Assembly (NCBI GenBank): GCA_003054665.1
Contig: QAYY01000011.1
Span: 408,654-472,653 of the forward strand
Direction of reading: 5' to 3'
From: Opitutaceae bacterium EW11
Lineage (GTDB): Bacteria; Verrucomicrobiota; Verrucomicrobiia; Opitutales; Opitutaceae
DNA: 64,000 nucleotides
A program made the translations under genes and the position numbers. Every line of letters starts with the position of its first letter. Position 1 is the first letter of the stretch. Below the pieces are notes generated by a model, which had not been told where the DNA came from, made no database searches, and was given only the letters and a program-made list of their open reading frames with translations. Shown in pieces: positions 15,272 through 43,100 of this stretch.

Positions 15272-15739
15272 ATGGACTTGGTGGCGATCTACGAATGCCT
15301 GTGCGATCGGACGCGGCTGCGCATCCTGCACCTGCTGCTGGGCGGGCCCCTGTGCGTCTGCCATTTCCAGGAGATTCTGGGAGAACCTCAGGTGAAGATT
15401 TCGAAGCACCTCGGGTACCTGAAGCGAAACGGCCTGGTGGCGGCGGAGCGCTGCGGACAGTGGATGATCTACCGGTTGCCGGAAACGCGGCCGGCACCGC
15501 TGGAGGCCAACCTCGCCTGTCTGCAGGACTGCGTGCGCGAAGAGACGGTCTTTCGGAGCGATGCGGCGCGGCTTCGGAAGATCCGGGCGAAGTTCGGCCC
15601 GGACGTTCCGGTTTGCGTGCGGGAGCTGGGAGGAGTCTGCGACGGCGCGGCTCAAACCCGCGGAACTCGGCGCAGGAAAGCGACGGCGGCGGGTCGAGGC
15701 CGCCCCGGCCGGTCCTTCGCCTCGGAGAACCTTCGCTGA
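15272..15739 (+). CDS. arsR: ArsR-family arsenic-responsive repressor
   Basis: A 155-residue winged-helix repressor, start ATG 15272 (MDLVAIYECLCDRTRLRIL) with an AGGA element upstream; an earlier ATG at 15245 falls inside the probable operator. The metalloid-binding pair lies at Cys28 and Cys30 (PLCVCHFQEIL) on the DNA-binding helix, as in classical ArsR. The recognition region is QVKISKHLGYLKRNGLV. The C-terminal tail carries two further Cys (VCVRELGGVC) and a basic end. It should repress the downstream ACR3 pump and arsenate reductase genes and release DNA on binding As(III) or Sb(III). The ACR3 gene starts 15 bases later. Confidence 0.92.
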   Translation: MDLVAIYECLCDRTRLRILHLLLGGPLCVCHFQEILGEPQVKISKHLGYLKRNGLVAAERCGQWMIYRLPETRPAPLEANLACLQDCVREETVFRSDAARLRKIRAKFGPDVPVCVRELGGVCDGAAQTRGTRRRKATAAGRGRPGRSFASENLR

Positions 15740-15754
15740 CGAAGCCAAACGATC

Positions 15755-16861
15755 ATGAGTGAGCAAACGATGGAGTCCGCATCTGTTCCCGCCGCGCCGG
15801 CAAAGCCGAAGCGGCTGAATTTCTTCGAGCGCTATCTGTCGCTCTGGGTGCTGAGCTGTATGGTGGTGGGAGTCGCCGCGGGGAAACTTCTGCCCGAGGC
15901 CGTCAACGCTCTCAGCCGGGTCGAATTCGGAAGCGGTTCCCAGGTCAACGTGCCGATCGCGATCCTGATCTGGCTGATGATCTACCCGATGATGCTGAAG
16001 ATCGATTTCGGCTCGCTGGTGGGCGTGACGAAGAGGCCGAAGGGGCTGCTCGTGACGCTCTTCGTCAACTGGCTGGTGAAGCCGTTCAGCATGGCGTTCT
16101 TCGCCTGGCTGTTCTTCCAGCACGTGTTTTCCGCCTGGGTCGATCCGTCGGCGGCGAGCAATTACACGGCCGGACTGATCATCCTCGCGGCGGCGCCCTG
16201 CACGGCGATGGTCTTTGTCTGGAGCTATCTCACCGACGGCGATCCGGCGTACACGCTCGTGCAGGTGGCGGTGAACGACTTGATCATGCTCGTGGCCTTT
16301 GCGCCGATCGTGATGTTCCTCTGCGGCGTGGCCAACGTCGTGGTGCCGTCGAAGGTCCTGATCACGTCGGTCGTAGTCTTTATCGTGATACCGCTGGCCG
16401 CGGGATGGTTCACCCGCACGCTGCTTCTGCGGACGAAAGGGAAGACGTGGTTCGAGAGCCGATTCCTCCCGCGTTTCCACCCGGTGACGGTGCTCGCGCT
16501 GCTGGCGACGCTCGTGCTGATTTTTGCCTTCCAGGCGGAGAATCTCACCAGCCGCTGGTTCGCGGTTCTCCTCCTGGCGGTGCCGATCCTGGTCCAGGTC
16601 TATTTCAACTCGACGCTGGCCTACCTGCTCATGCGGTTTTTCAAGGTGCCGCACGACGTCGCGTCTCCCGGTTCGCTGATCGGCGCGAGCAACTTCTTCG
16701 AGCTGGCGGTCGCGGTGGCGATCACGCTTTTCGGTCCCGGCTCGGGGGCCGCGCTGGCGTGCGTCGTCGGCGTGCTCGTCGAGGTGCCGGTCATGCTTTC
16801 CGTCTGCAAAGTCTGCAACGCCTCGCGCTCCTGGTACGACCGTGCCGTCGCCGCCCACTGA
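15755..16861 (+). CDS. acr3: ACR3-type arsenite efflux transporter
   Basis: A 368-residue inner-membrane carrier with ten predicted hydrophobic helices. ACR3 hallmarks are [18 protein letters not shown] in helix 2 and the functional Cys in [15 protein letters not shown] (Cys149), plus [11 protein letters not shown] and a late [17 protein letters not shown]. It exports arsenite, powered by the proton gradient. It lies between arsR and arsC in one operon, 15 and 5 bases from its neighbours. Some annotations call this family ArsB, although it is unrelated to the E. coli ArsB fold. The C-terminus retains [12 protein letters not shown], common in this group. Confidence 0.95.
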
Positions 16862-16866
16862 ATCAC

Positions 16867-17301
16867 ATGAACCCCAACGTTCTCATTCTCTGCACCGGAA
16901 ACTCGTGCCGGAGTCACATGGCGGAAGGCGTCCTGCGCGCCGCCGCGGGCGACCTTGTGGAGGTCCACAGCGCCGGATCCAAGCCGGCGGGTTACGTGCA
17001 CCCGAAGGCGATCCAGGTGATGAAGGAGATCGGCGTCGACCTCTCCGGCCACGTTTCGAAACACATGAACGACTTCCTCAACCGGAAGATCACCACCGTC
17101 ATCACGGTGTGCGGCAACGCCGACCAAGCTTGCCCGATGTTTCCGGGGCAGGTGAACCGCCATCACTGGGGTTTCGACGATCCGGCTCACGCCACCGGCA
17201 CGGACGAGGAGATCCTCCAGGAATTTCGCCGAGTTCGGGACCAGATCCGCCTTGTGTTCCAGGCCTACGCGGCGGGATTGAAAGAGGGCAGATCGCTGTA
17301 G
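16867..17301 (+). CDS. arsC: Thioredoxin-coupled arsenate reductase (low-MW phosphatase fold)
   Basis: A 144-residue enzyme that reduces arsenate to arsenite for export by ACR3. The start is ATG 16867, five bases after the acr3 stop. The phosphate-binding loop Cys9-X5-Arg15 ([14 protein letters not shown]) is intact. The redox relay cysteines are Cys82 and Cys89 ([10 protein letters not shown]), at the same positions as in the S. aureus pI258 enzyme, so it should use thioredoxin and not glutaredoxin. The segment [16 protein letters not shown] is also typical of the family. It is the last gene of the arsR-acr3-arsC operon. Confidence 0.95.
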
Positions 17302-17497: not shown

Positions 17498-20400
17498 GTG
17501 AAGAAGTCTGAAGAGAATCGCAGAGGCGAACTGCGCCCGGATATCCACCCCGGCGCTACAAAACCGGTTGTCGCCCGGCGGGCCAGGGCTCTGCAGTGGC
17601 TGACCGGAGCACCTCCCGGAGGCGAAGCCGACTCGGGGTCCTTCGATCGGCTGATGCTCGTGATCGGCTCCGTCGCGGGCGCCGCCCTGCTCGGCGCGGG
17701 CTACTTGTATCTGAATTTCCACTTCAGACAGGCCGAGAACCAGGTCCAGAGCGAGCTGGCGGCGGTGGCGGAACTGAAAGCCGGGCAGATCGGAGCGTGG
17801 CGTGCCGGGCGGCTCGAGGATGTCCGCTCGGTGGTGCGGCTTCTCCAACTGGAGCGCGAGTATCCCATCCAGGACGGCTCAGCCTCGGAACAGCGCGTCG
17901 CCGCGTATCTCGACGAAATGCGGCGCTCACGCGGCTACGAGAGCGTGGCGTGGGTGACGGACGGCGGCCGCGTCCTGCGCTCCTCGCCGGCGGAACTGCC
18001 GGACCGCGTCCTGTTTCCGCCCGGGTTTGCCGCGGGTTCCGGGCCCGTCGTGCGCGACATCCACAGCGAATTCGCAGGCAGACTGTGGATCGAGTTCTGG
18101 GGCTCCGTCAGCGCGTTGGAAGACCCCGCCACGGTGGGTGCCGTGCGGATTCGGGTGAACGCGGAGACGCAGCTTTTCCCGCTCTTCAGCGGCTGGCCTT
18201 TGCCGAGCAGGACGGCGGAGATCCTTCTCCTGCATCGCGACGGTTCGCGTCTGGTGTGGGTCGCGGACCAGCGTCTCCAGAGGACTCCCACGGACGCGGA
18301 GAACCGCTCCGCGGCGCTTTTGTCGAGAGCCGCGCGCGAACCGCGCTTCAACCTGGTCGGCGGCATCGATCGCCGCGGGAAGCGCGTGCTCGCGCTGGCG
18401 CGTCCCGTCGAAGGCAGCCCTTGGGTGCTCGTGGCGAAGATCGACCGGGAGGAGGCGTTCGAGAGCTTGCGGCACGAAGTCTGGCTGGTGGCCGGCGGCA
18501 TCGCCGTGGTCGGGCTGCTCGTCGCGGCGGGACTCGCTCAATACTGGCGCCGGCAGCGGCTCCAGCTGGAGTTGCGACGTCAGGAAGCGGACCGGCGGCG
18601 CCGCGCCGCGATGGAGCGGCTGGGTCTGCTTCTCCAGCACGCCAACGACGTGGTGCTGATCCTCGACGAAGAGATGCGAATCGTCGAAGCCAACCAGCGC
18701 GCCGAGGAGGTCTACGGCTGGCCGTCGGCGGAGTTGTTGAAACTGAGCATCCGCGACCTCCGCGCGCTGGAGAACCGCGCCACCGTCGAGACGGATTTCC
18801 GTCTCTCGCTTGACCGGAGCACGCTGCGAGAGACGGTGCATCGGCGCCGCGACGGCACGACGTTTCAGGCGGAGATCAGCGCCCGGCCCGTGCAGATTGA
18901 CGGCCGCAGGCACGTGCTCTCGATCATCCGCGACATCACGGAGCGGAAGCGGCACGAGCAGGAGATCGAGCGCCTCGGACGGATGTACCGCGTGCTCAGC
19001 GAAATCAACCACGTCATCGCGCACCGGAAGACGAAGAGCGAAATTTTCTCCGCCGTCTGCACGTCGCTGGTGCGCTCCGGCCACTTCAGCCTTGCCTGGA
19101 TCGGCTGGCACAACCCGGAGACTCGTGAGATCGAGCCCGTCGCGGTCGTGGGCGAATCGGCCGAGGGCTACACATCGCAGGTCCGCATCTCGTCGGATCC
19201 GAACGTGCCGGAAGGAAAGGGCCCGACCGGCACCGCGTTCCGCGAGGACCGCACTTACGTCTGCGACGACCTCTTGGCGAACCAGGCGATCGGGCCCTGG
19301 CGCGACCACGCATTGAAGTGCCGGATACGTTCCAGCGCGGCGCTTCCGATCCGATTGCACGGCGTTCCGCAGGGGATGCTGTCCGTCTACCACGGCGAAC
19401 CGGGTTATTTTCGCGACCGCGAGCTGGCTCTTCTCGAGGAGGCGGCGGGAGACGTGTCGTTCGCCATCGATGTGCTCGCCAGCGAGGCCCAGCGCCGCGA
19501 GGCGGAGGCCGCGCGGCTGGCGAGCGAGGCACGGTTGACCCATCTGCTCACCGCCACGCCCGCGGTGATCTACTCCCTGGCGCCCGACGTTTGGGAGAAC
19601 ACCTTCCTGAGCGCCAACGTCGTGGAGGTCCTGGGCTACGAGCCCAGTGCCTTCCTCGGAAGTCCGAATTTCTGGTTCGAGCACACTCACCCCGACGACC
19701 TGCCGGCCGCGACTGAGGCGATGAGGAACATCGGCGTCACGGGCAGCGCGGTCCGGGAGTATCGGTTTCGACACCGCGACGGCGTGTATCGGTGGGTCCA
19801 CGACGAGTGCCGGCTGGTACGCGACGAGACCGGAAAGCCCCGGGAGGTCGTCGGCTACGCCCTGGATATCACGAAGCGCAAGGAGGCGGAGCAGACCCTC
19901 AGGGCGAGCGAGGAGAGGCATCGCGCGCTTTTCGAGAGCATGAATCTGGGCGTCGTCTATCACAACGCCTCGGGACGCACGATCAGCGCCAATCCGGCCG
20001 CCTCCCAAATCCTGGGATTCTCTCTGGAAGACCTGACCGCGCACACCTGCGTGGAGCTGGGCTGGTTCCCGTTTCGCGAGGACGGGACGGCTTTCGACGT
20101 GGAGGAACAGCCGGCGTACGTCGCGCTGCGCACCGGCAGGGCGGTGAACGGCGTGGTGATGGGCTTCGTGCACGGCTCCGACCGGCGCATCCGCTGGATC
20201 CTGCTCGACGCGGTGCCGGAGTTTCGCGCAGGGGAGTCGAAACCGCATCGGGCGTTTTCGATCTTCGCGGATATCACGGAGCGACTTCATGACGAGCTCG
20301 AGCGGCGCAAACTGTCGCTCACGATCGAGCAGAGCCCGGTCTCTATCCTCGTCACGGATTTGGACGGCGCGATCGAGTACGTGAATCCGCGCTTCACGAA

Positions 20401-23287
20401 AGTCACGGGCTACACCCTGGACGAGGTGAGGGGGAAAAAGCCCGGGATCTTCAAATCGGGAGTGATGAAGCCCGAGGTTTACCGCGACCTCTGGAAAACG
20501 ATCACCGAAGGCAGCGTTTGGCGCGGGGAAATCGTGAACCGCAAGAAGTCGGGCGAGCTGTACACCGAGATGGTCATCATCACGCCGGTGACGGACGCGC
20601 GCGGCCGCCGCACGCACTACGTCGCGGCGAGGGAGGACATCACCGAGCGGAAACGGGCGGAGGAGAATTTGCGGAAACTCACGCGGGCGATCGAACAGGC
20701 GCCGGTGTCGATGCTGATCACCGATCTGGAGGGCAACATCGAGTACGCGAACCCCTATTTCACGGAGATCTCCGGATATACCCTGCCGGAGGTGCTCGGC
20801 CGGAATCCTCGCATCTTCCAGTCCGGGCAGACTCCGTGCGAGACCTATGTGGAAATGTGGCGGACCCTCACCGCCGGTCAGGTGTGGCGCGGGGAGCTCT
20901 GCAACCGCAAAAAGAACGGCGACAGACACGACGAGTTCATCGTCATCGCGCCGGTGGTCGACGACACGGGCAAGGCGACCCACTACGTCGCGGTGAAGGA
21001 GGACATCACCGAGCGCAAGCGCGCCGCGGCGGCGCTGCGCCAGAGTCGCGAGCAGCTGGCCACCGCCGAGGCGCTGGCGCACGTCGGCCACTGGTCCTTC
21101 GATCTGGTGAGCGGCAAGAACGACTGGTCGGACGAGACGTATCGGATCTATGAATTCCCACTGGGGAGCCCCATCGTGTTCGACCGTTTTCTGGAGAGGG
21201 TGCATCCCGACGATCGCGAGCGCGTGGCGACGCTCGAAGGCGCATGCACTCCGAAAAGCCCGTGGTTTTCGATCTCGCACCGGCTGCTCCTCCCGGACGG
21301 GCGGGTCAAATACGTCGAGGCGACCGGCGCGCTGAGCTTCGGGACGGACGGCAAACCGGTGCGCTCGGTGGGGATGCTGCAGGACATCACCGAGCGGAAA
21401 CAGGTGGAACTCCAGCTTCACGAATTCGTGAAGGTGCTGCGTGCGCTGCATGCCGTCTCGCTCGCGGTGGAGAACCGCGGGCTGGACTCCGCGAACCTGC
21501 TCCTACGGATCGTCGGGCAGCTCCCGTGCGCGCTGCGCGTGCCGCTCCTTGGCCAGGCGGAAATCGTGTTGCGCGACAAACGCCTCGAGGCCGGCGCCTC
21601 CGGGAGGCGGGTGAAAGAGATATCCGCCCCGATCATGGTCAACGGCGCGAACGTCGGCGAAGTCGCGGTCGGTTATGTCGCTCCCCCGGCAGGCCACCCG
21701 ATTCCGGATTTTGTCGCTCAGGAGAGCGAGTTCGTGGAGAGCGTCGCTCGCACGATCGGGCTCGGCCTCGGCGAGCGTGAGACGTTCGACCAGCTGCGGA
21801 GGAGCGAAGAACGGTTCCGCGCGATCTTCGATCAGGCGGAGATGGGCATGTTCGAGACCACGCTCGACGGTGCGATCACCCGCGCCAATCCCTGCTTCGG
21901 CCGACTTCTCGGGGACGAACCGTCGAAGTGGGTGGGACGGCACTGGAGCGATATCCTCCTGGAAAAACAGGAAATCGCAGGCGGGGCGCCGTCCTCGGCG
22001 GCCAACGAAGTCCGCTGCAGGAACGCCGAGGGACGGAGTTTTTGGGGCGTGCTCACGAGCAAGCGGGAGCTGGCATCGGACGGTTCAGCCATCGGGCACA
22101 TCTGCCTGCTGCAAGACATCTCCGATCAGGTCGCCGCGCGCGAAACCCTGCTGCGCTTCAACGCGGAACTTGAAGCGAAGGTCGCCCAGCGCACGGCCGA
22201 GCTGAATGCCCGAAACCGCGAGGTGCAGGGCCTGCTTCAGGCGAATCCGGACATGATTCTGCGGATGAGAAACGACGGGTTCGTGCTCCACTGCCAGCGC
22301 GCGCCGGGACTGGACCATCTGGCATTGCGGGGCTGCGAATCGAACCGCGACGCCCAGCGATGCAAGGATTGCGCGGTGATGCGCGAGAGCCTCGCCATCG
22401 GTCGCGTGGCGGTCGAGGAATCCGCCACGCTGAGCTCGGAAGCCGAACTCAGGCTGCGGGACACGGCGTGCACGGTCGAGCTGCGCGCGGCGCCCATCGG
22501 CGAATCTGAGTTCGTCGTCTTTGTGCGGGACATCACCGACCGGAAACGGCTCGAGGTGGAAACGGCCGCGATGCTGGAAAAGGAGCGCCAGGTCTCGGAG
22601 ATGAAGACGCGGTTCATTTCTGTCACGTCGCACGAGTTCCGCACGCCGATGTCGGCGATGCTCGGCTCCGTCGATCTGCTGAGAAACCATTTCGATCAGC
22701 TCACGCCCGCGAAACGTTCGGAACTCCTGAGCCGGATCTCCTCCTCGATCGCGCGGATGACGGACATGCTCGACGACGTGCTCACCCTGAGCCGGATGGA
22801 CGCCAAACGCACGGAGGTCCGCCCCGGCCGCGTCGAGATCCGCGCGCTGATGGAGAGTCTGGTCGAGGAAATACGCGATGGAGACCGCGGTTCGCATCCG
22901 CTGGCGCTCGCGACCGACGCGGAGGTGGGCACCGTCATGACCGACGCGAATCTGCTGCGGCACATCGTCTCGAATCTCCTGAGCAACGCGGTCCGCTACT
23001 CTCCGGCCGGCGTCCCCGTCTCCATCCGCGTGGCTGCACAGGGAGAACGTATTCAGATCACCGTGACCGATCAGGGAATCGGCATCCCTCCGGAGGACCG
23101 GGCGCGGATCTTCGAACCCTTCGAACGCGGATCCAACGTCGGAAACATCAAGGGCACGGGACTCGGGCTGAACATCGTGAAACGGATGACCGAGCTTCTG
23201 GGCGGTACGATCGCCATCGAAGACGCGCAGCCGCGCGGCAGCCGGTTCATCGTCGTGCTGCCTCGCGACGCGGCCCCCAAGTCATGA
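17498..23287 (+). CDS. Giant membrane-bound multi-PAS/GAF sensor histidine kinase
   Basis: A 1929-residue sensor starting at GTG 17498. Two transmembrane helices (about residues 53-75 and 328-350) enclose a roughly 250-residue extracytoplasmic sensor region. The cytoplasmic part then carries eight PAS domains (about 368-486, 678-798, 803-931, 938-1055, 1061-1176, 1188-1303, 1435-1545 and 1575-1688), most ending in the DITERK signature. There is a GAF domain at 496-661 and a weaker GAF-like segment at 1308-1428. HisKA has its phospho-acceptor at His1712 (TSHEFRTPMSAML). The HATPase has an N box at Asn1830 and TDQGIGIPPEDRARIFEPF and GTGLGLNIVK motifs. It has no receiver domain of its own. Its stop overlaps the start of the next gene, which supplies one. 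The ligands are unknown. Confidence 0.93.
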   Translation: MKKSEENRRGELRPDIHPGATKPVVARRARALQWLTGAPPGGEADSGSFDRLMLVIGSVAGAALLGAGYLYLNFHFRQAENQVQSELAAVAELKAGQIGAWRAGRLEDVRSVVRLLQLEREYPIQDGSASEQRVAAYLDEMRRSRGYESVAWVTDGGRVLRSSPAELPDRVLFPPGFAAGSGPVVRDIHSEFAGRLWIEFWGSVSALEDPATVGAVRIRVNAETQLFPLFSGWPLPSRTAEILLLHRDGSRLVWVADQRLQRTPTDAENRSAALLSRAAREPRFNLVGGIDRRGKRVLALARPVEGSPWVLVAKIDREEAFESLRHEVWLVAGGIAVVGLLVAAGLAQYWRRQRLQLELRRQEADRRRRAAMERLGLLLQHANDVVLILDEEMRIVEANQRAEEVYGWPSAELLKLSIRDLRALENRATVETDFRLSLDRSTLRETVHRRRDGTTFQAEISARPVQIDGRRHVLSIIRDITERKRHEQEIERLGRMYRVLSEINHVIAHRKTKSEIFSAVCTSLVRSGHFSLAWIGWHNPETREIEPVAVVGESAEGYTSQVRISSDPNVPEGKGPTGTAFREDRTYVCDDLLANQAIGPWRDHALKCRIRSSAALPIRLHGVPQGMLSVYHGEPGYFRDRELALLEEAAGDVSFAIDVLASEAQRREAEAARLASEARLTHLLTATPAVIYSLAPDVWENTFLSANVVEVLGYEPSAFLGSPNFWFEHTHPDDLPAATEAMRNIGVTGSAVREYRFRHRDGVYRWVHDECRLVRDETGKPREVVGYALDITKRKEAEQTLRASEERHRALFESMNLGVVYHNASGRTISANPAASQILGFSLEDLTAHTCVELGWFPFREDGTAFDVEEQPAYVALRTGRAVNGVVMGFVHGSDRRIRWILLDAVPEFRAGESKPHRAFSIFADITERLHDELERRKLSLTIEQSPVSILVTDLDGAIEYVNPRFTKVTGYTLDEVRGKKPGIFKSGVMKPEVYRDLWKTITEGSVWRGEIVNRKKSGELYTEMVIITPVTDARGRRTHYVAAREDITERKRAEENLRKLTRAIEQAPVSMLITDLEGNIEYANPYFTEISGYTLPEVLGRNPRIFQSGQTPCETYVEMWRTLTAGQVWRGELCNRKKNGDRHDEFIVIAPVVDDTGKATHYVAVKEDITERKRAAAALRQSREQLATAEALAHVGHWSFDLVSGKNDWSDETYRIYEFPLGSPIVFDRFLERVHPDDRERVATLEGACTPKSPWFSISHRLLLPDGRVKYVEATGALSFGTDGKPVRSVGMLQDITERKQVELQLHEFVKVLRALHAVSLAVENRGLDSANLLLRIVGQLPCALRVPLLGQAEIVLRDKRLEAGASGRRVKEISAPIMVNGANVGEVAVGYVAPPAGHPIPDFVAQESEFVESVARTIGLGLGERETFDQLRRSEERFRAIFDQAEMGMFETTLDGAITRANPCFGRLLGDEPSKWVGRHWSDILLEKQEIAGGAPSSAANEVRCRNAEGRSFWGVLTSKRELASDGSAIGHICLLQDISDQVAARETLLRFNAELEAKVAQRTAELNARNREVQGLLQANPDMILRMRNDGFVLHCQRAPGLDHLALRGCESNRDAQRCKDCAVMRESLAIGRVAVEESATLSSEAELRLRDTACTVELRAAPIGESEFVVFVRDITDRKRLEVETAAMLEKERQVSEMKTRFISVTSHEFRTPMSAMLGSVDLLRNHFDQLTPAKRSELLSRISSSIARMTDMLDDVLTLSRMDAKRTEVRPGRVEIRALMESLVEEIRDGDRGSHPLALATDAEVGTVMTDANLLRHIVSNLLSNAVRYSPAGVPVSIRVAAQGERIQITVTDQGIGIPPEDRARIFEPFERGSNVGNIKGTGLGLNIVKRMTELLGGTIAIEDAQPRGSRFIVVLPRDAAPKS

Positions 23288-24366
23288 AAGCCGTCACCAT
23301 CCTTGTCATCGACGACGACGAAGCCGTCCGCCAGACCCTGCTGGATATCCTCGAGTTGAACGGCTACGAAACGCTGTCCGCCAGCAACGGGCAGGCCGGC
23401 TTCGAACTGGCGCAGGCCAGAAAACCCTCGCTGATCATCACGGACATTTCGATGCCCGGGCTCGGTGGTCTGGAGCTGCTGACGCGGCTGCGCACCGATC
23501 TCGAATTGCGGGACATCCCCGTGATCGTGATCTCGGCGAAGACCGACCGGGCCGCGACGCGGCGGGGAATGGATCTTGGTGCGGCCGACTACATCACGAA
23601 GCCGTTCACCGAGGAGGAAATCCTGCATTCGATCGGGACCCGTCTGGCGAACAAGGAGCTGCTCGACGAACTGGACGCATTCGCCCACACCGTCGCGCAC
23701 GATCTTCGCAATCCGCTCTGCGCGTTGAAAGGTCAGTTGTACCTGGCGGCCACGGAGGAAGGCCCGGATGCGCCGCGGCTGGTCCAGGAGCACCTCTCGG
23801 AGGCGAACCAGATCACGGATACGCTCGCTTCCATCCTCGACGAACTCCTGATCCTCGCGGGAGTGCGCCGCCAGATCGTCTGCTTTGAGCAGATCGACAC
23901 CGCCGGCGTGGTCGCCGAGGCGATTTCGCGGCTGGAGACATTGCTCAAGGACAGCCACGCCACGATCCGACAGCCGGAGACCTGGCCGGTGGCGTTCGGG
24001 CATGCGCCCTGGGTCGTCCACATTTGGGTCAACTACATCGGGAACGCCCTGAAATACGCCGGGCCCAACGTGGACATCCTTCTGGGGAGCGGGCCGGGCG
24101 AGGACCCGCGGCGCGTGCGGTTCTGGGTGCAGGACCGCGGCCCGGGACTCGACGCGGCCGCCTGTCAACGACTGTTCGTTCCGTTCACCCGGATATCGAC
24201 GGTGCGGGTGAAGGGGCACGGACTCGGGCTGTCGATCGTGCGGCGCATCGCGGAAAAACTTGGCGGCGCGGTCGGCGTGGAGAGCGAGCTGGGCAAGGGC
24301 TCGCGTTTTTGGTTCGAGCTTCCGGCGGCCCAGCCCGGAAGCGACGGACCGCACACGGTGTTCTAG
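23284..24366 (+). CDS. Receiver-histidine kinase hybrid (first copy)
   Basis: A 360-residue soluble protein. An N-terminal receiver domain (about 1-120) has its acidic pocket in VIDDDEA and phospho-acceptor Asp54 (ITDISMPG), with Lys106 in ITKPFTEE. A HisKA region follows with His139 (TVAHDLRNPLCALKG), then a HATPase with Asn in VNYIGNALKYAG and GHGLGLSIVRRIAEKLGG. This order, receiver first and kinase second, is that of a phosphorylation-controlled kinase. It overlaps the multi-PAS kinase gene by four bases (ATGA) and is likely its immediate target. No DNA-binding or enzymatic output is present. It is a paralogue of the next gene. Confidence 0.92.
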   Translation: MKAVTILVIDDDEAVRQTLLDILELNGYETLSASNGQAGFELAQARKPSLIITDISMPGLGGLELLTRLRTDLELRDIPVIVISAKTDRAATRRGMDLGAADYITKPFTEEEILHSIGTRLANKELLDELDAFAHTVAHDLRNPLCALKGQLYLAATEEGPDAPRLVQEHLSEANQITDTLASILDELLILAGVRRQIVCFEQIDTAGVVAEAISRLETLLKDSHATIRQPETWPVAFGHAPWVVHIWVNYIGNALKYAGPNVDILLGSGPGEDPRRVRFWVQDRGPGLDAAACQRLFVPFTRISTVRVKGHGLGLSIVRRIAEKLGGAVGVESELGKGSRFWFELPAAQPGSDGPHTVF

Positions 24367-24380
24367 CGGAGCGGGCGACC

Positions 24381-25460
24381 ATGAAGATCCTCATCATCGA
24401 AGACGACCAGGCGATCCGAGACGTGTTGATCGATCTGCTCGAACTCAATGGATACGCCGTTCTTTCGGCGACGAGCGGGGAGGAAGGCGTGCGGCTGTCC
24501 AGCGCCGTGCCTGACCTGATTCTCTGCGATATCGGCCTGCCGGGAATCGACGGCTTTCAGGTGATCTCGGCGATCCGCGAGCAGCCCGGGTGCCGCGAAA
24601 TCCCTTTCCTTTTTCTCACCGCGCGCGCGGATCGCGGCGACCTGCGAAAAGCGATGGCGCTGGGCGCCGACGACTACCTCACGAAGCCTTTCACCGAGCA
24701 CGAGGTGATCGAGGCGATTCAGGCCCGCGTGGCGCGCCACAAGCCGCTCCGGGACCGTATCCAGTCCCTGATTTCCGAAAAGCACACCGCGGCGCTGGCG
24801 GAGTGGTCGCATGAACTCCTGACTCCGTTGAACGGCGTGCTCGGCGGCCTCGAGCTGATCGAGATGTCGGCCGATTCGATCGATCGCGACGAACTCAAAG
24901 AGGCCCTCGGCCTGATCCGCGCCGGCGCCGAACGCCAGCGTCGCTTGTCCCGAAAACTTGTTACGTACTTCGATACCCAGCGCCCCCGGGCCGGCGCCCC
25001 GGATGCGGAGATCGAGATCTGTCTTGCGCCCGAGACGATCGCCTTCGCCGCGACGTCTACGGCGGCGTCCGAAGGGCGAGTCGCCGACGTGGCGGTGCAC
25101 GCGGCGTCGTCGAAACTGGGGATCCTTGCGTCTCGCCTCGTGATCGCCGTGTCCGAGTTGGTGGAGAACGCGCTTCGCTTTTCCGAGTCTGGCGACCGAG
25201 TGACGATTCTGGGAAGCCTCGAAGGAGCAACCTATCGGATCGCGGTTTCGGACGAGGGGCCCGGAATCTCGGCGGACGAACGGAACCGCGTGGGTCCTTT
25301 TGTCCGCTTTCCCCGCCGCGGCAGCGAGCGCCCCGGGCTCGGCCTCGGGTTGGCTACGGTGAGGTCGATCGCGGATTCAGCAGGAGGACGTTTTGCGCTG
25401 GAAGACGGTCCGCACGGGCGAGGATTGACGGCGACGCTGATCGTTCCGGCGAGAGGGTAG
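24381..25460 (+). CDS. Receiver-histidine kinase hybrid (second copy)
   Basis: A 359-residue protein with the same receiver-HisKA-HATPase order as its neighbour, starting 14 bases after that gene's stop. Receiver: EDDQA acidic pair, Asp50 (LILCDIGLPGIDGF), Lys102 in LTKPFTEHE. HisKA: His144 (EWSHELLTPLNGVLGGLEL). HATPase: VSELVENALRFSESG, DEGPGISADERNRVGPF and GLGLATVRSIADSAGG. Similar wording in both proteins (LIDLLELNGYAVLSA and LLDILELNGYETLSA) points to tandem duplication. Together with the multi-PAS kinase it forms a three-kinase cascade with no output protein encoded beside it. Confidence 0.92.
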   Translation: MKILIIEDDQAIRDVLIDLLELNGYAVLSATSGEEGVRLSSAVPDLILCDIGLPGIDGFQVISAIREQPGCREIPFLFLTARADRGDLRKAMALGADDYLTKPFTEHEVIEAIQARVARHKPLRDRIQSLISEKHTAALAEWSHELLTPLNGVLGGLELIEMSADSIDRDELKEALGLIRAGAERQRRLSRKLVTYFDTQRPRAGAPDAEIEICLAPETIAFAATSTAASEGRVADVAVHAASSKLGILASRLVIAVSELVENALRFSESGDRVTILGSLEGATYRIAVSDEGPGISADERNRVGPFVRFPRRGSERPGLGLGLATVRSIADSAGGRFALEDGPHGRGLTATLIVPARG

Positions 25461-25591: not shown

Positions 25592-26029
25592 TCAGCGGCG
25601 TTTGCTGATGCGGCGAAAAATCCGGAGAAATTCGTCCGCGGGCGAGCGAGTTTCCCGGTGATTCGGCGGCCAGCGACTGAGCTCGAAAGGGTTGAGCGTC
25701 GGATGCGGATGCCGCGACGGTTCGGAGCCGTCGTCGAAGGCGAGCGTGTAGTCCGAATACTCGCGGGAGTGGAGGTATCCGTCCCACACGCGGCTGACGT
25801 TGAAGTGGCGGGGATCGCGTTCGATTTTTCCGAAGAGCCGTCGAACGGGCACATCGCCTCCCTCGATTACCTGCAGGAATTGTCGATCGTGGTAGATCAG
25901 GATCCCGGTGATACCCTGGACCGCGTTTCGAGTGTGGTTCTCCTCGAACAGCGTTTTGAGATCAGGCGTAACCCAAGGAAATCTGGAGGTGCTGACGTAG
26001 ATGAGCTGGTAGGGACTCGCTCCTTGCAT
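25592..26029 (-). CDS. BLUF-domain blue-light sensor protein
   Basis: A 145-residue protein that is almost entirely a BLUF flavin-binding photoreceptor domain (about 5-100) with a short C-terminal extension. The photocycle residues are present: Tyr11 (LIYVSTSR), Asn35 (TRNAVQGITGILIY) and Gln53 (RQFLQVIEGG). Their spacing (24 and 18) equals that of AppA Tyr21/Asn45/Gln63. The semi-conserved Trp (AppA Trp104) is replaced by Tyr94 in YSDYTLAF. Short BLUF proteins act by binding a partner. It is convergent with the three-kinase operon and follows the large kinase gene on its own strand after about 200 bases, so a link to either is possible but unproven. Confidence 0.93.
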   Translation of the reverse strand: MQGASPYQLIYVSTSRFPWVTPDLKTLFEENHTRNAVQGITGILIYHDRQFLQVIEGGDVPVRRLFGKIERDPRHFNVSRVWDGYLHSREYSDYTLAFDDGSEPSRHPHPTLNPFELSRWPPNHRETRSPADEFLRIFRRISKRR

Positions 26030-26226: not shown

Positions 26227-29200
26227 TTAAGCTCCGGAGGACATTTTCGGCAGCGTGAAATAGAGGGTCGCGCCGCGATCGACCTCGCCCTCGATCCACA
26301 CGCGGCCGCCGTGGCGATCCATCACGCGGCGCACACTCGCGAGTCCGATTCCCGTGCCGGGAAACTCCTGCGTGCTGTGAAGACGCTGGAATGCGCCGAA
26401 GAGCTTTTTCGAATACGTCATGTCGAAGCCGCAGCCGTTGTCGCGGACGAAGTAGATCGGTCCGGCAGGATCGTCCTTCACGCCGAATTCGATCCGGGCG
26501 CTGTCTTTTTTTCCCGTGTATTTCCAGGCGTTCGAAAACACGTTGTCCAACGCGATGCGGAGCAGAGCCGCGTCGCCCTGGACGATGCAGTTGGGTGCGA
26601 TGGCGAATTCGACGTTGCGCTCGGGGCCGGATTTCCTGAGGTCCGCCGCGATGACCTCCGCGATCTCGCTGAGGTTCACGCTGGAAAGGCGCATCTCGGT
26701 GCGGTTGATCCGGGAGAGCCGCAGGACGTCGTCGATCAATTGTCCCATCTTCTGGCTGGCGGATCGGACGGTGCGAAGATTCTCGCGCCCTTCGGCGTCG
26801 ATCTTGTCGGAGTAGTCCTCCAGCAGGATCCGGCTGAAGCCGTCGATGCTGCGCAGCGGCGCGCGGAGATCGTGCGAGACGGAGTAGCTGAAGGACTCCA
26901 GCTCCTTGTTCGCCGCCTCGAGCTGGGCGGTGCGAATCTTCACGCGCTCGTCGAGTTCCTGATTGAGCCGGCGGATGGCCTCTTCGGCGCGTTTTCGTTC
27001 GATCAACCGCCACATGCCTTCCATCAGCAGCGTGAGCTGGCGGACGTCGGCGTCGTTGTAGTCCCCGTCCTTGTTGCCCACGCCGGCGACGAGCACGATC
27101 TTCCCGCCGACGATGACCGGTAGATTCATGTGGCGCTTCAAACGCACGTGCCCCTCCGGCATGCCTCGTTTCCACGGATTCGCGGCTTCGTAATCGTTGG
27201 TCACGATCGGGCGGCGCTGTCGGACGGCTTCGCCCCAGAGGCCGGTCGTTTCGAGGCGGAAAACGCGGGGCGCATTTTGCACCCGGCACGACTCCATCGC
27301 TTCCTTTGACCAGAGCTGCATCGTCAGGACGGTCTCGTCGTCGTTCACGAACGCGAGGTAGCCGAGCCTGCTGCTGGTCAGTCGGACCGCGGCCTGAAAC
27401 GCGTACTCCATGATTTCGGCCTCGGTGGCGGACGCCATCTGGTTCAGCTGGAGGAGGGCGTCGATCCGCTCCGCGTTGAGCCGAAACGCCTCTTCCGCCT
27501 CCTTGCGCGCCGTGATGTCGCGTCCCTCCGCGATCAGCTGGACGACGCTTCCCTCCGAATCGACGATCGGTTTGATCGAGAAGTCGACGTGCCGCGTCTG
27601 GCCCGTTTTCGCCAGGTGGGTCACCTCGAGCCGCAGGAGCCGGCCGCCGGCCGCCTCGCGCACCGCTAAGCGGATACGCTCCTGGAGCTCCGGAGAATGC
27701 GACCACCAGGGCGTGAGCCAGAACGGCTTGCCGACCACTTCCTCCGCGGTGGTCCCGATCATCGTCAGCGCCGCTTGGTTGGTTTCCAGAAGTGCGCCGT
27801 CGACGGAGAGCACGCCGATGAGCTGGAACGTTTGGTCGAAGACGGCGTGAAATCTCTGTTCGCTCTGGCGCAGCGCCTCCTCGGTCCGTTTGCGCTCCTC
27901 GATTTCGGCGAGCAGGCGTGCGTTCGCGGCCTTGAGTTCGGACGTTCGCTCCGAGACCCGCTGCTCGAGCTGATCGTGCGCCTGCTGCAGCGCTTGCTGG
28001 ATTTCGACGCGGTCCGCGATTTCCCGAAGAAGCCGGGAATTGGCGTCGCTCAGCTCCGCGGTGCGCGCTTTCACCTGGTCCTCGAGGAAGTCGCGATACT
28101 GCCTCAATTCGCCCTCCGCGGTTTCGAGGGCGGAAATCTTCTTCTCCAGGTCGGCATAGAGACCGGCGTTTTCGATCGAGATGGCGGCCTGGGCGGCGAG
28201 GGCCCGGAGAACCTCGAGACGTTCGGCGGTGAACACTTCGGCCGCGAGGCTGTTTTCGAGGTAAAGGATGCCCGAGAGTTTGCCTTGGTAAACGACCGGG
28301 AGGCAGAGCAGGGACCGGATGCGGCCCTCGACGACATGCGGGTCGGTCCCGTAGGTGCGGTCCCGGTGGGCGTCTCCCAACACGACGTGGCTCTGGGTGC
28401 GCGCCACGTAGTTGAGCACTGAATGCGCGATGTCCGTCGAAGCCTCCGCGGGAGTGCCCTGCATCGTCTCCACGCCGTCGCGCGTGGCGCGCGCCTGGAC
28501 GAGGAGGCGTCCTCCGGCGCTCTGGATCAGGATTCCCCGTTCCGCTCCGGCGCTCTCGACGACGATGCCCATCAGCTTTTCGAGCAGCCGCCCGAGCCGG
28601 ACCTCCTGGGAAAGCGTCTGGGAGGCCTTCAGGATCGCGACGGTATCGAGCGGAGTGGAAACGCCCTCGGCCTTCAGCCGCTGCTCCATATCGCGGACTT
28701 TCCGGTTCGCTCCCCACGAACGGTACGCATCAGCGGCTTTCCGAAGCGAGAAAGCCGCGAGGTCCTCCCGGCCGACGCCCTGGTGGAACACCGCTTCGCG
28801 CTCGTACGCGAGAGCCTCGTCCTGGATGTAGCCGTTTTCCCGGGAGAGGCGGATGGCGTGCTTGAAATGCTCCATTGCTCGGTCGTTCTCCCCCTTGAGC
28901 CGGGCGCGCTCGGCCTCGAGGAGCGCGAGCTTGTGGGCGAAGTTGAACGGGGCGAGGGCGGCCCACTGCTTGAACCGGTCGATCAGCGGCGCGGCGAAGG
29001 CCGCCGTCGACGGCTGGGCGAGCAGGGCCATGGCGTAATAGAAAGTCTGGTACGCGTTGTACAGGTAGCTGTGCCCCGCCTCGGCGTGGGCTTCGGCGAG
29101 CCGCCCCGACTCGATCGCGCCCGCGTAGTCGCCGAAGAGATACTGCAGCATCATCCGGCAGTAGAGGGTCCGCAGGACCAGGAGGGAGTTGTTTTCCTTG

Positions 29201-32200
29201 ATCCAGGTCGGCAGCAGCTTCGTTTCGTCGAACAGCTCGCCCGAGAGCCGGCGCGGATCCGCGGGATTCCCGCGCAGGTTTTCCACCAGCTGGCCGAACA
29301 TGCGCACGGTGTAGGTTTGATACGGCAGACGGGTGCGCTCGATCGCCTCGATGTACTCCAGCTGTTTCCGATGCACCGATTCGAGCGGCGCTCCCGTGCA
29401 GAAAAGGTAACCGCAATGGTGGATGGCGCCGAGGCAGGCGGACTCGACGTCGCCCGCCTCGAGCCCGCGGCGGTAGACGTCGAGGAGCGGGCCGACGCAG
29501 TCGCGCACGTTTTCTTTCCAGGGCCGGATCTGGGCGTGAAAGAGCAGGCACACCTTCGGCTCGAGTTCCGGCGCCGGCAGGCGTTGCAGGACTTCGAGCG
29601 CGAGCCGGCCGAAACGGTAGCCGAGATCCACGCCCCCGGGATCGGTGCAATGAAGGGCCCCGTACCAGCCGTAGGCGTCGGCGGCCATGGGCGAGTTTCC
29701 CTCCTCCGCGGCGAGCAGGACCATTCGCGCGACGATGGCCTTGAGAAACTCCCGATGCGCGCGGTGGGCCGGCGCGGGAAGCTGCATCATCACCCGCATC
29801 GCGGCGAGATGCCGCGCGTCGGACATCCGCGGGAGGTCTGCCAGCGCCTCGACCGAGCCGGCTTTCTCGGCGAGCTGCCGCTCCCACTCGGCTCCCCCGG
29901 CCGCGACCTCGTCGGGGCTGGACGGCAGATCGAGGTCGAGTTCGTTCAGGGCCTCCAGACCGGCCTTGATCGCCTCGGCGTCCTGATTCTGCGCCGTGTG
30001 AAGGAGAATCCGGCACTCATGGACCCTGATGCGGGTGTAGAGATCGGCGGTGTGGGCGAGGACCTCCTTGGCCAGCAGGGCGGCGCGATCGAAGTTGGCG
30101 CTCAAGTATTCGGCCTCCATGGCCTCCACGAACAGGGCGAGGGCGAGTTCATGTCGCCGCGTCCAGCGATCGGCCGGGAGCAGCCCGACCCCCATGCTCA
30201 GGTACCGGATCGCCGCCTGGTAGGCCACCGCACGTTTGGCTTTTCGTCCGGCGCGCAGATTCAGGTCTGCAAGCTCGAGGAGCTCGCCGTCGCTCGTGAG
30301 CAACTGGAAGCCCTCGTTCAGTTGATCCACGACGAGAAAAATCCCGTCGTCCAGCAGGCTGGGCGGAGTCCGTCCGAGCAGCAGCCTCCCCAGCCGGAGG
30401 TGGGCCTGCCGGCGCTGTTTTTTTGGCAGCAGCGCGTACGCCGCCTGCCGCACTCGGTCGTGGGAGAACTCGAACGACTCCGAGGCCGCGGAGGATCCTG
30501 TGGCTTCGACCCGAGGAGCGCGCACGGCGCCGCCTGGGCGTATCAAACCGGCGGTTACGGCGGGACGCAGGAGCCCGGGAATGTCGCCCCCCGCGCGCCC
30601 GGCAATCTCGACAAGGTCCGAGATCGTGAACCGGTTTCCCGCGCAGGCCGCGAGCGAAAGGAGCCCGCGAGTTTCGGCCGGGAGCGTCTCGAAGCGCTCC
30701 GTCATCAGTCTCGCGACGCCGCCGGTCGTCTCCTTCCGACGAATCGCCTCTGCGTCCCACTGCCAGGCTCGTTTCTCCCAGTCGAAGCGGAGAAGACCTT
30801 CGCCGGAAAGCGAGGACAGGAGTTGCCGGACGAGAAGGGGATTGCCGTTCGTCTTCTCCATCACGAGCTGCGCGAGGGGGGAGGCGGCGGAGACATCGAC
30901 GGTGAGCGCGTCGGCGACGAGGTCGTTGGTCGCGGCGAGGGGGAGGTTTTCCAGTACGATTGTGCGGGTGAAAGATTTCAGCGGACGGAGTCTTTCCACC
31001 ACCGGGGCGAGCGGGTGCTCCGCATCGACTTCGTCGTTTCGGTACGCGCCGACGAACGCGATCGGCCGCGCGTCCAGGTCCGAAAGCAGGAGGTCGAGCA
31101 CGTGCAACGACGCCTGGTCGGCCCACTGCAGATTGTCGAGAAACAGCACCAGCGGCTGGCCAACCCGGGCGAGAGCCTGGATGAAGCTGTGGAAGACGCG
31201 CAGAAACCGGTGCTGCGCTTCCGCCGGACCGAGCGCGAGCGCGGCGGGCTGCGGCCCGATCACCAGTTCAAGGCGAGGCAGCATGTCCACGAGCAGCCGC
31301 CCGTTGCCGCCGGCGGTGTCGAGGATCCGCGCCTTCCAATCCGCCAGCTTCGCCGTGTTTTCCGTGAGCGCGAGATCCACGAACTCGTCGAAGGCCTGCA
31401 GCAGTCCGGCGTAGGGAAGGTGGCGTTGCGTGCCATCGTAGCTTCCCTCGACAAAGATGCCTCCCAAACCGGCGACGAACCGACGAAGGCTGTCGACCAG
31501 CGCGCTCTTTCCGACGCCGGTCGGTCCGGAGACAAAGACCACGCGGCCGTGGCCGGCGGCGGCGTCCCGCACCGCCTGCTTCAGCCCGAGGAGTTCCTGT
31601 TCGCGGCCCACGAGCCGATCGGAAAGCTGAAGGACGCCGCGATGGTCCGCGGTGCCGAGCGGGAATGCTTCGACTCGGCCGGTCTGCTGGAGCTGATCGA
31701 GGCAGATGGCGAGGTCGGCACGGAGTCCGAAAGCAGATTGGTAACGCTCGTCCGCGTCCTTGGCCAGGAGGCGTAGGAGGATCGTCGATACGGATTCCGG
31801 GATCCCAGAATCCACCTCCCGAGGCGGAACAGGACTCTGCGCGAGGTGGCAGTGAATGAGTTCCGAAGGATCGCTCGCGGAGAACACCGGCCTCCCCGTG
31901 AACACCTCGTAGAGCACGGCGCCGAGCGAATACAGATCCGATCGTTGGTCGACCGGGCGGTTGGTGCGTCCGGTTCGCTCCGGAGAAATGCAGGCGGCGA
32001 AGACTTCCTCGGGGTCGGACGTTTCGGCGACGGCTTCCTCTCCGGCTCGGCAGGCGCTTCCCAGATCGATCAGTGTCGCGGAGAATGGGCGGGCTGCGGT
32101 GACGAGAATGTGGTCGCCGGTGAGGTTGCGGTGAACGAGGCCGAGGCGATGCAGTTCGTCGAGCGCCCCGGAGATGGCGACTGCGACCTCGAGGTTCTCC

Positions 32201-32520
32201 TCGAGCGAGCGCCGCGTCTGGACAAACTCCTCCCGCAGCGTTGCTTCTTCGCGATACTCCAGGACCAGCGCGGGGTGCTCGCCGACCCGGATCTCCGCCA
32301 GAGCGCGCCGGATGCGCGGAGAATCGATGCCCGCGGACAGGGCATATTCGTTGGCGAGCCGCTTCGCGTGCAGGGGGCTGCCGTCGCCGGGGCGGAGGGC
32401 CTTGACGACGACGGGGCGGTCGAAGGCGCTCTCCCGCTCGAGGTGGAGCACGTACGTGCGTCCCTCGTGGATGCAGGGGAGGGAGGCGAGCGCCTGCGGC
32501 GTGAGTTTGCGCGTCTTCAT
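26227..32520 (-). CDS. Kinase-like/AAA/TPR/GAF/PAS/GAF/histidine kinase multi-sensor protein
   Basis: A 2097-residue cytoplasmic signalling protein, start ATG 32520 (MKTRKLTPQAL), overlapping the DUF1638 stop by four bases. Residues about 15-290 are an Hanks-type kinase-like domain with Lys40 (VVVKALRPG), but HRD is changed to H130-R-N132 (LVHRNLTGDHILV) and DFG is DLG152-154. About 310-590 is an AAA/STAND ATPase (P-loop GPTGVGKSAL, Lys338; Walker B LVLFLDNLQWAD). A long helical TPR-like region spans about 600-1250. A GAF domain (about 1300-1450), coiled coil, PAS (about 1550-1675) and second GAF (about 1690-1840) follow. A HisKA with His1883 (VSHDLRAPLRSIDGF) and an HATPase (GTGIGLASVRRVMDRHGG) complete it. 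The architecture matches known multi-sensor multi-kinases. Being last in the mtaCB operon suggests it senses or regulates that pathway. Confidence 0.92.
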   Translation of the reverse strand: MKTRKLTPQALASLPCIHEGRTYVLHLERESAFDRPVVVKALRPGDGSPLHAKRLANEYALSAGIDSPRIRRALAEIRVGEHPALVLEYREEATLREEFVQTRRSLEENLEVAVAISGALDELHRLGLVHRNLTGDHILVTAARPFSATLIDLGSACRAGEEAVAETSDPEEVFAACISPERTGRTNRPVDQRSDLYSLGAVLYEVFTGRPVFSASDPSELIHCHLAQSPVPPREVDSGIPESVSTILLRLLAKDADERYQSAFGLRADLAICLDQLQQTGRVEAFPLGTADHRGVLQLSDRLVGREQELLGLKQAVRDAAAGHGRVVFVSGPTGVGKSALVDSLRRFVAGLGGIFVEGSYDGTQRHLPYAGLLQAFDEFVDLALTENTAKLADWKARILDTAGGNGRLLVDMLPRLELVIGPQPAALALGPAEAQHRFLRVFHSFIQALARVGQPLVLFLDNLQWADQASLHVLDLLLSDLDARPIAFVGAYRNDEVDAEHPLAPVVERLRPLKSFTRTIVLENLPLAATNDLVADALTVDVSAASPLAQLVMEKTNGNPLLVRQLLSSLSGEGLLRFDWEKRAWQWDAEAIRRKETTGGVARLMTERFETLPAETRGLLSLAACAGNRFTISDLVEIAGRAGGDIPGLLRPAVTAGLIRPGGAVRAPRVEATGSSAASESFEFSHDRVRQAAYALLPKKQRRQAHLRLGRLLLGRTPPSLLDDGIFLVVDQLNEGFQLLTSDGELLELADLNLRAGRKAKRAVAYQAAIRYLSMGVGLLPADRWTRRHELALALFVEAMEAEYLSANFDRAALLAKEVLAHTADLYTRIRVHECRILLHTAQNQDAEAIKAGLEALNELDLDLPSSPDEVAAGGAEWERQLAEKAGSVEALADLPRMSDARHLAAMRVMMQLPAPAHRAHREFLKAIVARMVLLAAEEGNSPMAADAYGWYGALHCTDPGGVDLGYRFGRLALEVLQRLPAPELEPKVCLLFHAQIRPWKENVRDCVGPLLDVYRRGLEAGDVESACLGAIHHCGYLFCTGAPLESVHRKQLEYIEAIERTRLPYQTYTVRMFGQLVENLRGNPADPRRLSGELFDETKLLPTWIKENNSLLVLRTLYCRMMLQYLFGDYAGAIESGRLAEAHAEAGHSYLYNAYQTFYYAMALLAQPSTAAFAAPLIDRFKQWAALAPFNFAHKLALLEAERARLKGENDRAMEHFKHAIRLSRENGYIQDEALAYEREAVFHQGVGREDLAAFSLRKAADAYRSWGANRKVRDMEQRLKAEGVSTPLDTVAILKASQTLSQEVRLGRLLEKLMGIVVESAGAERGILIQSAGGRLLVQARATRDGVETMQGTPAEASTDIAHSVLNYVARTQSHVVLGDAHRDRTYGTDPHVVEGRIRSLLCLPVVYQGKLSGILYLENSLAAEVFTAERLEVLRALAAQAAISIENAGLYADLEKKISALETAEGELRQYRDFLEDQVKARTAELSDANSRLLREIADRVEIQQALQQAHDQLEQRVSERTSELKAANARLLAEIEERKRTEEALRQSEQRFHAVFDQTFQLIGVLSVDGALLETNQAALTMIGTTAEEVVGKPFWLTPWWSHSPELQERIRLAVREAAGGRLLRLEVTHLAKTGQTRHVDFSIKPIVDSEGSVVQLIAEGRDITARKEAEEAFRLNAERIDALLQLNQMASATEAEIMEYAFQAAVRLTSSRLGYLAFVNDDETVLTMQLWSKEAMESCRVQNAPRVFRLETTGLWGEAVRQRRPIVTNDYEAANPWKRGMPEGHVRLKRHMNLPVIVGGKIVLVAGVGNKDGDYNDADVRQLTLLMEGMWRLIERKRAEEAIRRLNQELDERVKIRTAQLEAANKELESFSYSVSHDLRAPLRSIDGFSRILLEDYSDKIDAEGRENLRTVRSASQKMGQLIDDVLRLSRINRTEMRLSSVNLSEIAEVIAADLRKSGPERNVEFAIAPNCIVQGDAALLRIALDNVFSNAWKYTGKKDSARIEFGVKDDPAGPIYFVRDNGCGFDMTYSKKLFGAFQRLHSTQEFPGTGIGLASVRRVMDRHGGRVWIEGEVDRGATLYFTLPKMSSGA

Positions 32521-33299: not shown

Positions 33300-33311
33300 G
33301 GCGGAGGGGTG

Positions 33312-36370: not shown

Positions 36371-36387
36371 TGCCTGGATTGGGTTCG

Positions 36388-43019: not shown

Positions 43020-43100
43020 TGGGTAACGGCAACCGATCCCACGCCGCGGAGTGCGGCTTGCGTCCGGGTTTGCACCGGAGCGGCAGAGGCGGGTGACGCG

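Follow-up and report, generated by a model that had tools for sequence, protein, structure and literature searches.

HK1-A-B, a conserved kinase-only module of Opitutaceae with two matched receivers on kinase cores assigned to different lineages

The window analysed here, a stretch of 64,000 nucleotides from Opitutaceae bacterium EW11 (contig QAYY01000011.1, positions 408,654 to 472,653), contains three consecutive genes on the + strand that all end in kinase domains, namely the membrane sensor kinase HK1 and two small receiver-kinases, A and B. The trio HK1-A-B is a conserved module of the Opitutaceae, real, recurring and coherent, in which A and B carry closely matched receivers in front of kinase cores that, judged from trees and identities, belong to different deep lineages. 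According to the reading we favour, and which we hold to be somewhat probable, the signal fans out: HK1 would phosphorylate the receivers of both A and B, and each receiver would switch its own kinase core, the targets of which would be encoded away from the module. Among the papers listed by literature searches, judged by titles and the beginnings of abstracts, none describes this module, subscription papers being mostly outside the reach of these searches.

HK1 (17498..23287, 1929 aa) was recognised from its open reading frame and from Pfam and NCBIfam matches as a membrane histidine kinase with multiple PAS domains and a GAF domain. Its stop overlaps the start of A in an ATGA (23284..23287), as had been predicted. 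By Pfam, A (23284..24366, 360 aa) and B (24381..25460, 359 aa) are both REC-HisKA-HATPase_c kinases, separated by a 14-nucleotide gap (24367..24380) between the stop of A, at 24366, and the ATG of B, at 24381. The receiver of A occupies 23299..23643, up to a putative junction near residue 120 (Pfam, comparison with other receivers of the genome, breakpoint analysis), and is followed by a kinase core with dimerisation-phosphotransfer (DHp) and catalytic (CA) domains at 23674..24330; in B, the receiver lies at 24387..24722 and the DHp-CA core at 24792..25451. Pfam detected no DNA-binding or other output domain in A or B, no HPt domain in any of the three proteins, and no receiver after the C-terminal HisKA-HATPase_c of HK1. 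No response regulator or HPt gene stands within the module, and none was seen recurring beside it in relatives, as judged by gene calls and by similarity to the module's own domains only. The original prediction, made from the letters of the window, had described three consecutive kinase genes, the first without a receiver, signalling from kinase to kinase towards an unlinked output, and on these points it agrees with the present analysis. A scan for sigma-70-like promoters found none where 0.7 were expected, and the 12 terminator-like sites (6.1 expected) include several within genes and are uninformative.

The coherence of the trio is best seen in relatives. Among 252 Opitutaceae genomes, A was present in 44 and B in 41 (E<=1e-60, with the eight best first-look candidates per genome scored), while a phylum-wide draw, in which the best ten first-look candidates were scored (the best 35 in some other genome searches), gave B in 3 of 194, all three Opitutaceae. 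An HK1-type core directly precedes 42 of the 52 A copies examined; four of the other ten lie at contig edges and six, five of them divergent, have no HK1. For B, 42 of 46 matches were examined, and the full HK1-A-B order was found for 30 of these copies; they include one case where a solitary receiver gene separates A from B, two where the kinase of HK1 type is present twice and one where HK1 is frameshifted. One further locus (L037) holds HK1-A-B cut by the contig end, another (L041) holds A-B with its upstream side off the contig, three hold HK1-B without an intact A, and at seven B stands alone. HK1-A without B, on contigs that continue beyond, was seen at nine loci. Relatives usually have one A and one B per locus, which answers the question of copy number that the original prediction had raised. 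A 4-nucleotide overlap is the commonest arrangement both at the HK1/A junction (26 of 35 called pairs) and at the A/B junction (21 of 28), with gene starts in relatives chosen by a codon-usage caller. Because the order recurs across Opitutaceae, the trio is not a product of chance.

Some of these loci show peculiarities of their own. The lone receiver gene inserted between A and B (L050:5629-6036, - strand) is 54% identical to the receiver of B. At another locus (L078:6118-6504, - strand), the A copy located between HK1 and B has a large internal in-frame deletion, so that a portion of its receiver runs directly into the last part of the ATPase domain. What seemed to be a fusion of HK1 with A (2549 aa, locus L045), resembling the Leptospira kinase LvrA, was rejected, since its junction reads out of the HK1 frame and is therefore an assembly frameshift and no evidence of fusion.

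The two small kinases had originally been predicted to be paralogues that arose by tandem duplication and then diverged. Their adjacency, equal length and domain order, and the close kinship of their receivers are in keeping with a recent duplication of one small hybrid kinase; for the kinase cores the prediction fails. In a tree of 57 rows, A groups with receiver-kinases of Chloroflexi and Thiotrichaceae and B with other Opitutaceae receiver-kinases (support 100 for each); two long-branch rows were dropped from later trees, leaving 55. A single clade of both cores was rejected by the approximately unbiased (AU) test with p=5.7e-34, and a single clade of the full-length proteins with p=5e-5. 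Among the genera that were compared first, A orthologues found next to the module share 54-64% identity and B orthologues 46-50%, whereas A and B of the window share only 33%. Judged on these sequence comparisons, the kinase cores are of different deep lineages and a tandem duplication of the kinase halves is refuted; the idea survives for the receiver halves only, and for the genes as a whole we consider it extremely improbable.

The likeness of A and B is thus concentrated at one end of the proteins. Mean A-B identity is 0.449 in the receiver and 0.220 in the kinase; between A and its kin outside the Opitutaceae, the corresponding means are 0.351 and 0.452. The best breakpoint falls at residue 120 of A, the end of the receiver (bootstrap 5-95% range 110-120), and this analysis makes A a chimaera of two parts joined close to that residue. 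Outside the family, A-like receiver-kinases (L106-L166, the best 80 of at least 572 matches) are numerous in Anaerolineae and in Beggiatoa-type gammaproteobacteria, with more than one match in certain genomes and two consecutive ones at L135 and L141. B-like genes mostly stand alone, and they lie behind another kinase at L174, L177 and L182; a regulator common to the B-like gene contexts was not found. Two of these Opitutaceae loci, L174 and L182, present another kinase chain, in which the B-like receiver-kinase stands between a kinase and a hybrid kinase.

Within their own genome, each of the two receivers has its best match in the other. Among 150 candidates scored, from 200 and 187 first-look candidates, the best relative of the A receiver is that of B with 108 bits (next 81), and the best relative of the B receiver is that of A with 111 bits (next 106 and 103). 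Grouping the A receiver with the receivers of its kinase kin was rejected by the AU test in two sets (p=3.4e-6 and 4.8e-5). The excess of A-B identity over that of A to A-like receivers is greatest in helix 4 (0.48 versus 0.15) and is also seen in the loop-helix 1 part (0.47 versus 0.23) and at nine positions in helix 1 and after strand 5 (0.47 versus 0.24). These nine, like the DHp positions considered below, we take to be kinase-contact positions from work on EnvZ, Spo0F and HK853.

The next two receivers in rank for both A and B belong to two REC-LuxR regulators (L167:7677-8303 and L168:8889-9536, Pfam), and the kinase genes directly before them are the two nearest paralogues of HK1 in the genome, scoring 156 and 147 bits against 129 for the next (140 candidates scored). 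This is what would be expected if HK1-type kinases and A/B-type receivers had stayed together as partners. These pairs of kinase and REC-LuxR regulator (L167:6062-8303, L168:6910-9536) resemble HK1-A-B in the kinship of both kinase and receiver; they differ as ordinary two-component systems with a DNA-binding output, in the place of which HK1-A-B has kinase cores. The simplest reading, which we infer from this kinship, is that in an ancestral pair of this kind the DNA-binding output was replaced by kinase cores.

Several observations weigh against the fan-out and against the receiver kinship on which it leans. Strict sisterhood of the two receivers was supported at only 77 and 86 in trees. The first large receiver tree rejected A and B as one clade (p=0.012); this was before four rows were relabelled, namely the receivers of known A or B copies at L037, L085 and L105 and the lone receiver of L050 that resembles that of B. 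After these rows had been moved inside and eight long-branch rows dropped, A and B formed one side of a branch with support 86. Placement of the B receiver with its own kinase kin was not rejected in the largest set (p=0.83) and was rejected in a smaller one (p=0.009). In strand 4, the pattern of identities is reversed, with 0.33 between A and B and 0.56 between A and its kinase kin. Receivers of A and B from the same locus are no more alike than those from different loci (28 pairs, p=0.21), so that no ongoing conversion or fine co-adaptation is seen. L078 is the sole clear locus with a broken A, and the same genome has other A copies. Finally, HK1 is missing from the vicinity of six A copies for which the upstream sequence is available, and seven of the 42 B copies stand alone; other inputs therefore exist. 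Neither A nor B forms one group in the 55-row receiver tree; by sequence score the two receivers are reciprocal best relatives, and a strict sister relation between them is no more than possible.

The copies found apart would also be expected if three separately wired kinases simply travelled together as a cassette. We consider this very unlikely, given the 4-nucleotide overlaps at both junctions in most called pairs and the matched receivers, whose nearest kin are paired with the nearest kin of HK1.

The trio has intact catalytic motifs, and in A and B their residues were followed through relatives. The phosphorylation residues of the A receiver (D54, S/T84, K106) are kept in 47 of 47 sequences and those of the B receiver (D50, T80, K102) in 38 of 38. 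In the kinase of A, H139, N254 and the DxGxG motif are kept in 47 of 47, one glycine of the ATP-binding motifs being Ser in 5; in B, the phospho-His H144 is kept in 36 of 38, with Asn in the other two, and N263 in all 38. An acidic residue next to the phospho-His combined with N, S or T at H+4 is a mark of phosphatase-competent kinases. A keeps D140 in 47 of 47 and N/S/T143 in 46 of 47, and B keeps E145 in 37 of 38 and T/S148 in 36 of 38, which would suit proteins that serve chiefly to quench HK1 or other pathways, as phosphatases or as phosphate sinks. That single-receiver proteins can be sinks is described in the literature (PMC8578825). Nevertheless, the ATP-binding motifs are kept in A and B but for the single glycine, the phospho-His is kept except in the two B sequences, and a pure sink would presumably not need two different conserved catalytic domains. 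A role mainly in dephosphorylation or quenching is consequently doubtful in our view.

The original prediction had the phosphate running from kinase to kinase. In a serial chain of this kind, HK1 would phosphorylate A, the kinase of A would phosphorylate the B receiver, and only B would face the output. The HK1-A-B order of 30 of the 42 B copies is compatible with such a chain, and because the receivers are alike, any kinase that recognises one may recognise the other. On the other side, the DHp domain of A is only 34% like that of HK1 at the contact positions, compared with 65% among HK1 proteins, and loci with HK1-A without B (nine) or HK1-B without an intact A (three) exist. A serial chain is for these reasons judged unlikely, and the claim that the phosphate itself passes from kinase to kinase is not supported. 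The same two kinds of loci, taken with the matching receivers, favour the fan-out.

In the fan-out, HK1 would autophosphorylate on an envelope or cytoplasmic signal, and both A and B would take up the phosphate on their matching receivers. Within each protein, the receiver would then set the balance between autokinase and phosphatase activity of the attached kinase core, the two cores being unrelated. The cores would in turn have separate response regulators as targets, or a single one on which their effects are opposed, with genes elsewhere in the genome. The observed motifs, the recurring order with overlapping genes, the matched receivers on unrelated kinases and the two linker registers described next are the ground from which we infer every phosphotransfer step, the switching by the receivers and the unlinked targets of A and B.

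The linkers between receiver and kinase were compared by the spacing from the receiver Pro to the phospho-His, anchored on alignment columns; as the rows are related, the counts are not independent. The spacing is 32 in all 47 A sequences, equal to 4 modulo 7, and A-like proteins have 39, 46, 53, 60, 67 or 88, all again 4 modulo 7, in 55 of 58 (three not measurable). In B the spacing is 41 in 36 of 38 and 48 in the other two, in all cases 6 modulo 7, and in B-like proteins it is 41 in 5 of 10 and 37 in 4 of 10 (registers 6 and 2), with one not measurable. A and B are therefore held in two fixed heptad registers, and their responses may differ. Among engineered light-sensitive kinases, a change of linker can reverse the response, depending on register in one system and across several registers in another (PMC11164954), which motivates the idea of a push-pull splitter and does not show it. 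According to this idea, the same phosphorylation would switch one kinase on and the other off, so that one stimulus would give opposed outputs through registers 4 and 6 modulo 7, in a module that arose when a B/LuxR-type receiver was put on a foreign kinase core and two kinases took the place of a DNA-binding output. We regard this elaboration as speculative and improbable. The AlphaFold model of A shows a single unbroken helix at residues 110-157 (mean predicted local distance difference test score 83.8, about 70 at the junction), and the model of B has low confidence in the linker.

The fan-out has a bearing beyond this genome. HK1-A-B offers two kinases that share a receiver type and not a kinase lineage, kept by members of the Opitutaceae, and thus a natural test of how receiver specificity persists through an exchange of outputs, and of whether the direction of the signal depends on linker register. 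It also suggests a route by which a two-component pair could lose its transcription factor and become a splitter.

The sensor side of the module is more variable than its core. The GTG start of HK1 at 17498 is uncertain, the codon-usage gene caller having favoured the ATG at 17654. An extracytoplasmic part (17723..18478) lies between two hydrophobic stretches identified by eye in the translation, and its match to dCache_1 is weak (E 0.0059, below cut-off). It is followed by the PAS array (18620..22573), with seven stretches matching NCBIfam sensory_box and an eighth, divergent PAS region (22220-22573) with a sub-threshold match only (E 0.025). The count of eight PAS domains originally given is therefore fair; the clear GAF domain at residues 514-658 (Pfam) had been overlooked. 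The HisKA and HATPase_c core (22601..23269, Pfam) is the portion conserved in relatives, with 46-67% identity, while the called length of HK1 ranges from about 460 to 2400 aa. From these comparisons, the inputs of HK1 vary between relatives and the core of the trio is constant.

Directly upstream of HK1 are an ArsR-like regulator, an ACR3 arsenite pump and an ArsC-type reductase (15272-17301, +); downstream, a BLUF blue-light sensor (25592-26029, -) adjoins a 2127-aa protein (26227-32610, -) with Ser/Thr kinase, AAA, GAF, PAS, GAF and histidine kinase domains. ACR3, ArsC, BLUF and the first 1300 residues of this giant kinase had no match at 62 relative loci (E 1e-10), and a functional link of the module to these neighbours was rejected and the neighbourhood taken as incidental. 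Farther along are a methanol methyltransferase cluster (32517-37140, -) with MtaB, a B12-binding MtaC-like protein, a RACo activator and a DUF1638 protein, and a hybrid kinase with, behind it, a 557-aa protein in which a receiver is joined to a DNA-binding domain of LacI type (41412-44774, +), a combination that we do not know from elsewhere.

Among known systems, a classical phosphorelay (HK-REC-HPt-RR) has an HPt protein and a terminal regulator, and HK1-A-B has neither among its three genes. PhcS-PhcR-PhcQ of Ralstonia is likewise an operon with a sensor kinase and a receiver-kinase without a DNA-binding domain, and it differs in having one receiver-kinase, a separate receiver protein, PhcQ, and a role in quorum sensing (PMC8578825). 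KipF-PakF of Sphingomonas, named in PMC5863495, also has a kinase feeding a receiver-kinase, in a stress-response pathway. In CheA3-CheS3-CheY3 of Rhodospirillum centenum, one kinase controls another by phosphorylating a receiver of the latter, as proposed here; the kinases are chemotaxis-like, with one downstream kinase and a dedicated CheY3 output (PMC3868531). Receiver phosphorylation turns that second kinase off (PMC3868531), and in A and B it may accordingly either raise or lower kinase activity.

The closest comparison is with LvrA/LvrB of Leptospira, where LvrA phosphorylates the LvrB receiver and raises LvrB autokinase activity (PMC5863495); pseudo-phosphorylated LvrB forms a coiled coil that frees the catalytic domain, and LvrB then phosphorylates LvrC (PMC13269768). 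This system and CheA3/CheS3 are precedents in which the second kinase's autophosphorylation is governed by the phosphorylation of its receiver (PMC5863495, PMC13269768, PMC3868531). Since in LvrA/LvrB this sets the activity of the second kinase, it is the signal, and not the phosphoryl group, that passes through it; by analogy, HK1 would set A and B, which would act on unlinked regulators. No LvrC-like output (a receiver directly before a short Bergerat anti-sigma domain) was recognised in the genome among 150 scored of 208 receiver candidates and 37 HATPase_c_2 matches, the coordinates being compared by eye. Over its REC-HK part, A scores 153 bits against the NCBIfam LvrA model; no member of the trio passes the cut-off of 1200, which is set for the whole 819-aa protein and which a protein of the size of A could not reach. 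In a Foldseek comparison with the PDB, the model of A finds its top match in the LvrB structure 8vc9 (E 6e-20), with a template modelling score of only 0.37 and a root-mean-square deviation of 24, probably from a different arrangement of parts. The distance from phospho-Asp to phospho-His is 85 residues in A, 94 in B and 105 in LvrB (D56-H161 as published), so that A, 20 residues shorter than LvrB, would be without most of the three-heptad signalling helix. Two further differences are that LvrA has its own receiver and a second kinase module (HK-REC-HK), whereas HK1 has none, and that HK1-A-B has two receiver-kinases of different lineages in place of the one LvrB. The likenesses are that both are kinase operons without a DNA-binding output and that, here by proposal, an upstream kinase feeds the receiver of a small REC-DHp-CA kinase and the target is unlinked. 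As in the LvrB class, A and B have a receiver with the acid pocket, phospho-Asp, Thr/Ser and Lys, an intact DHp-CA core directly behind it without other output, and linkers that vary in heptad steps. Receiver-controlled kinase cascades are structurally understood in one case, LvrB, and HK1-A-B is a novel form of this known class.

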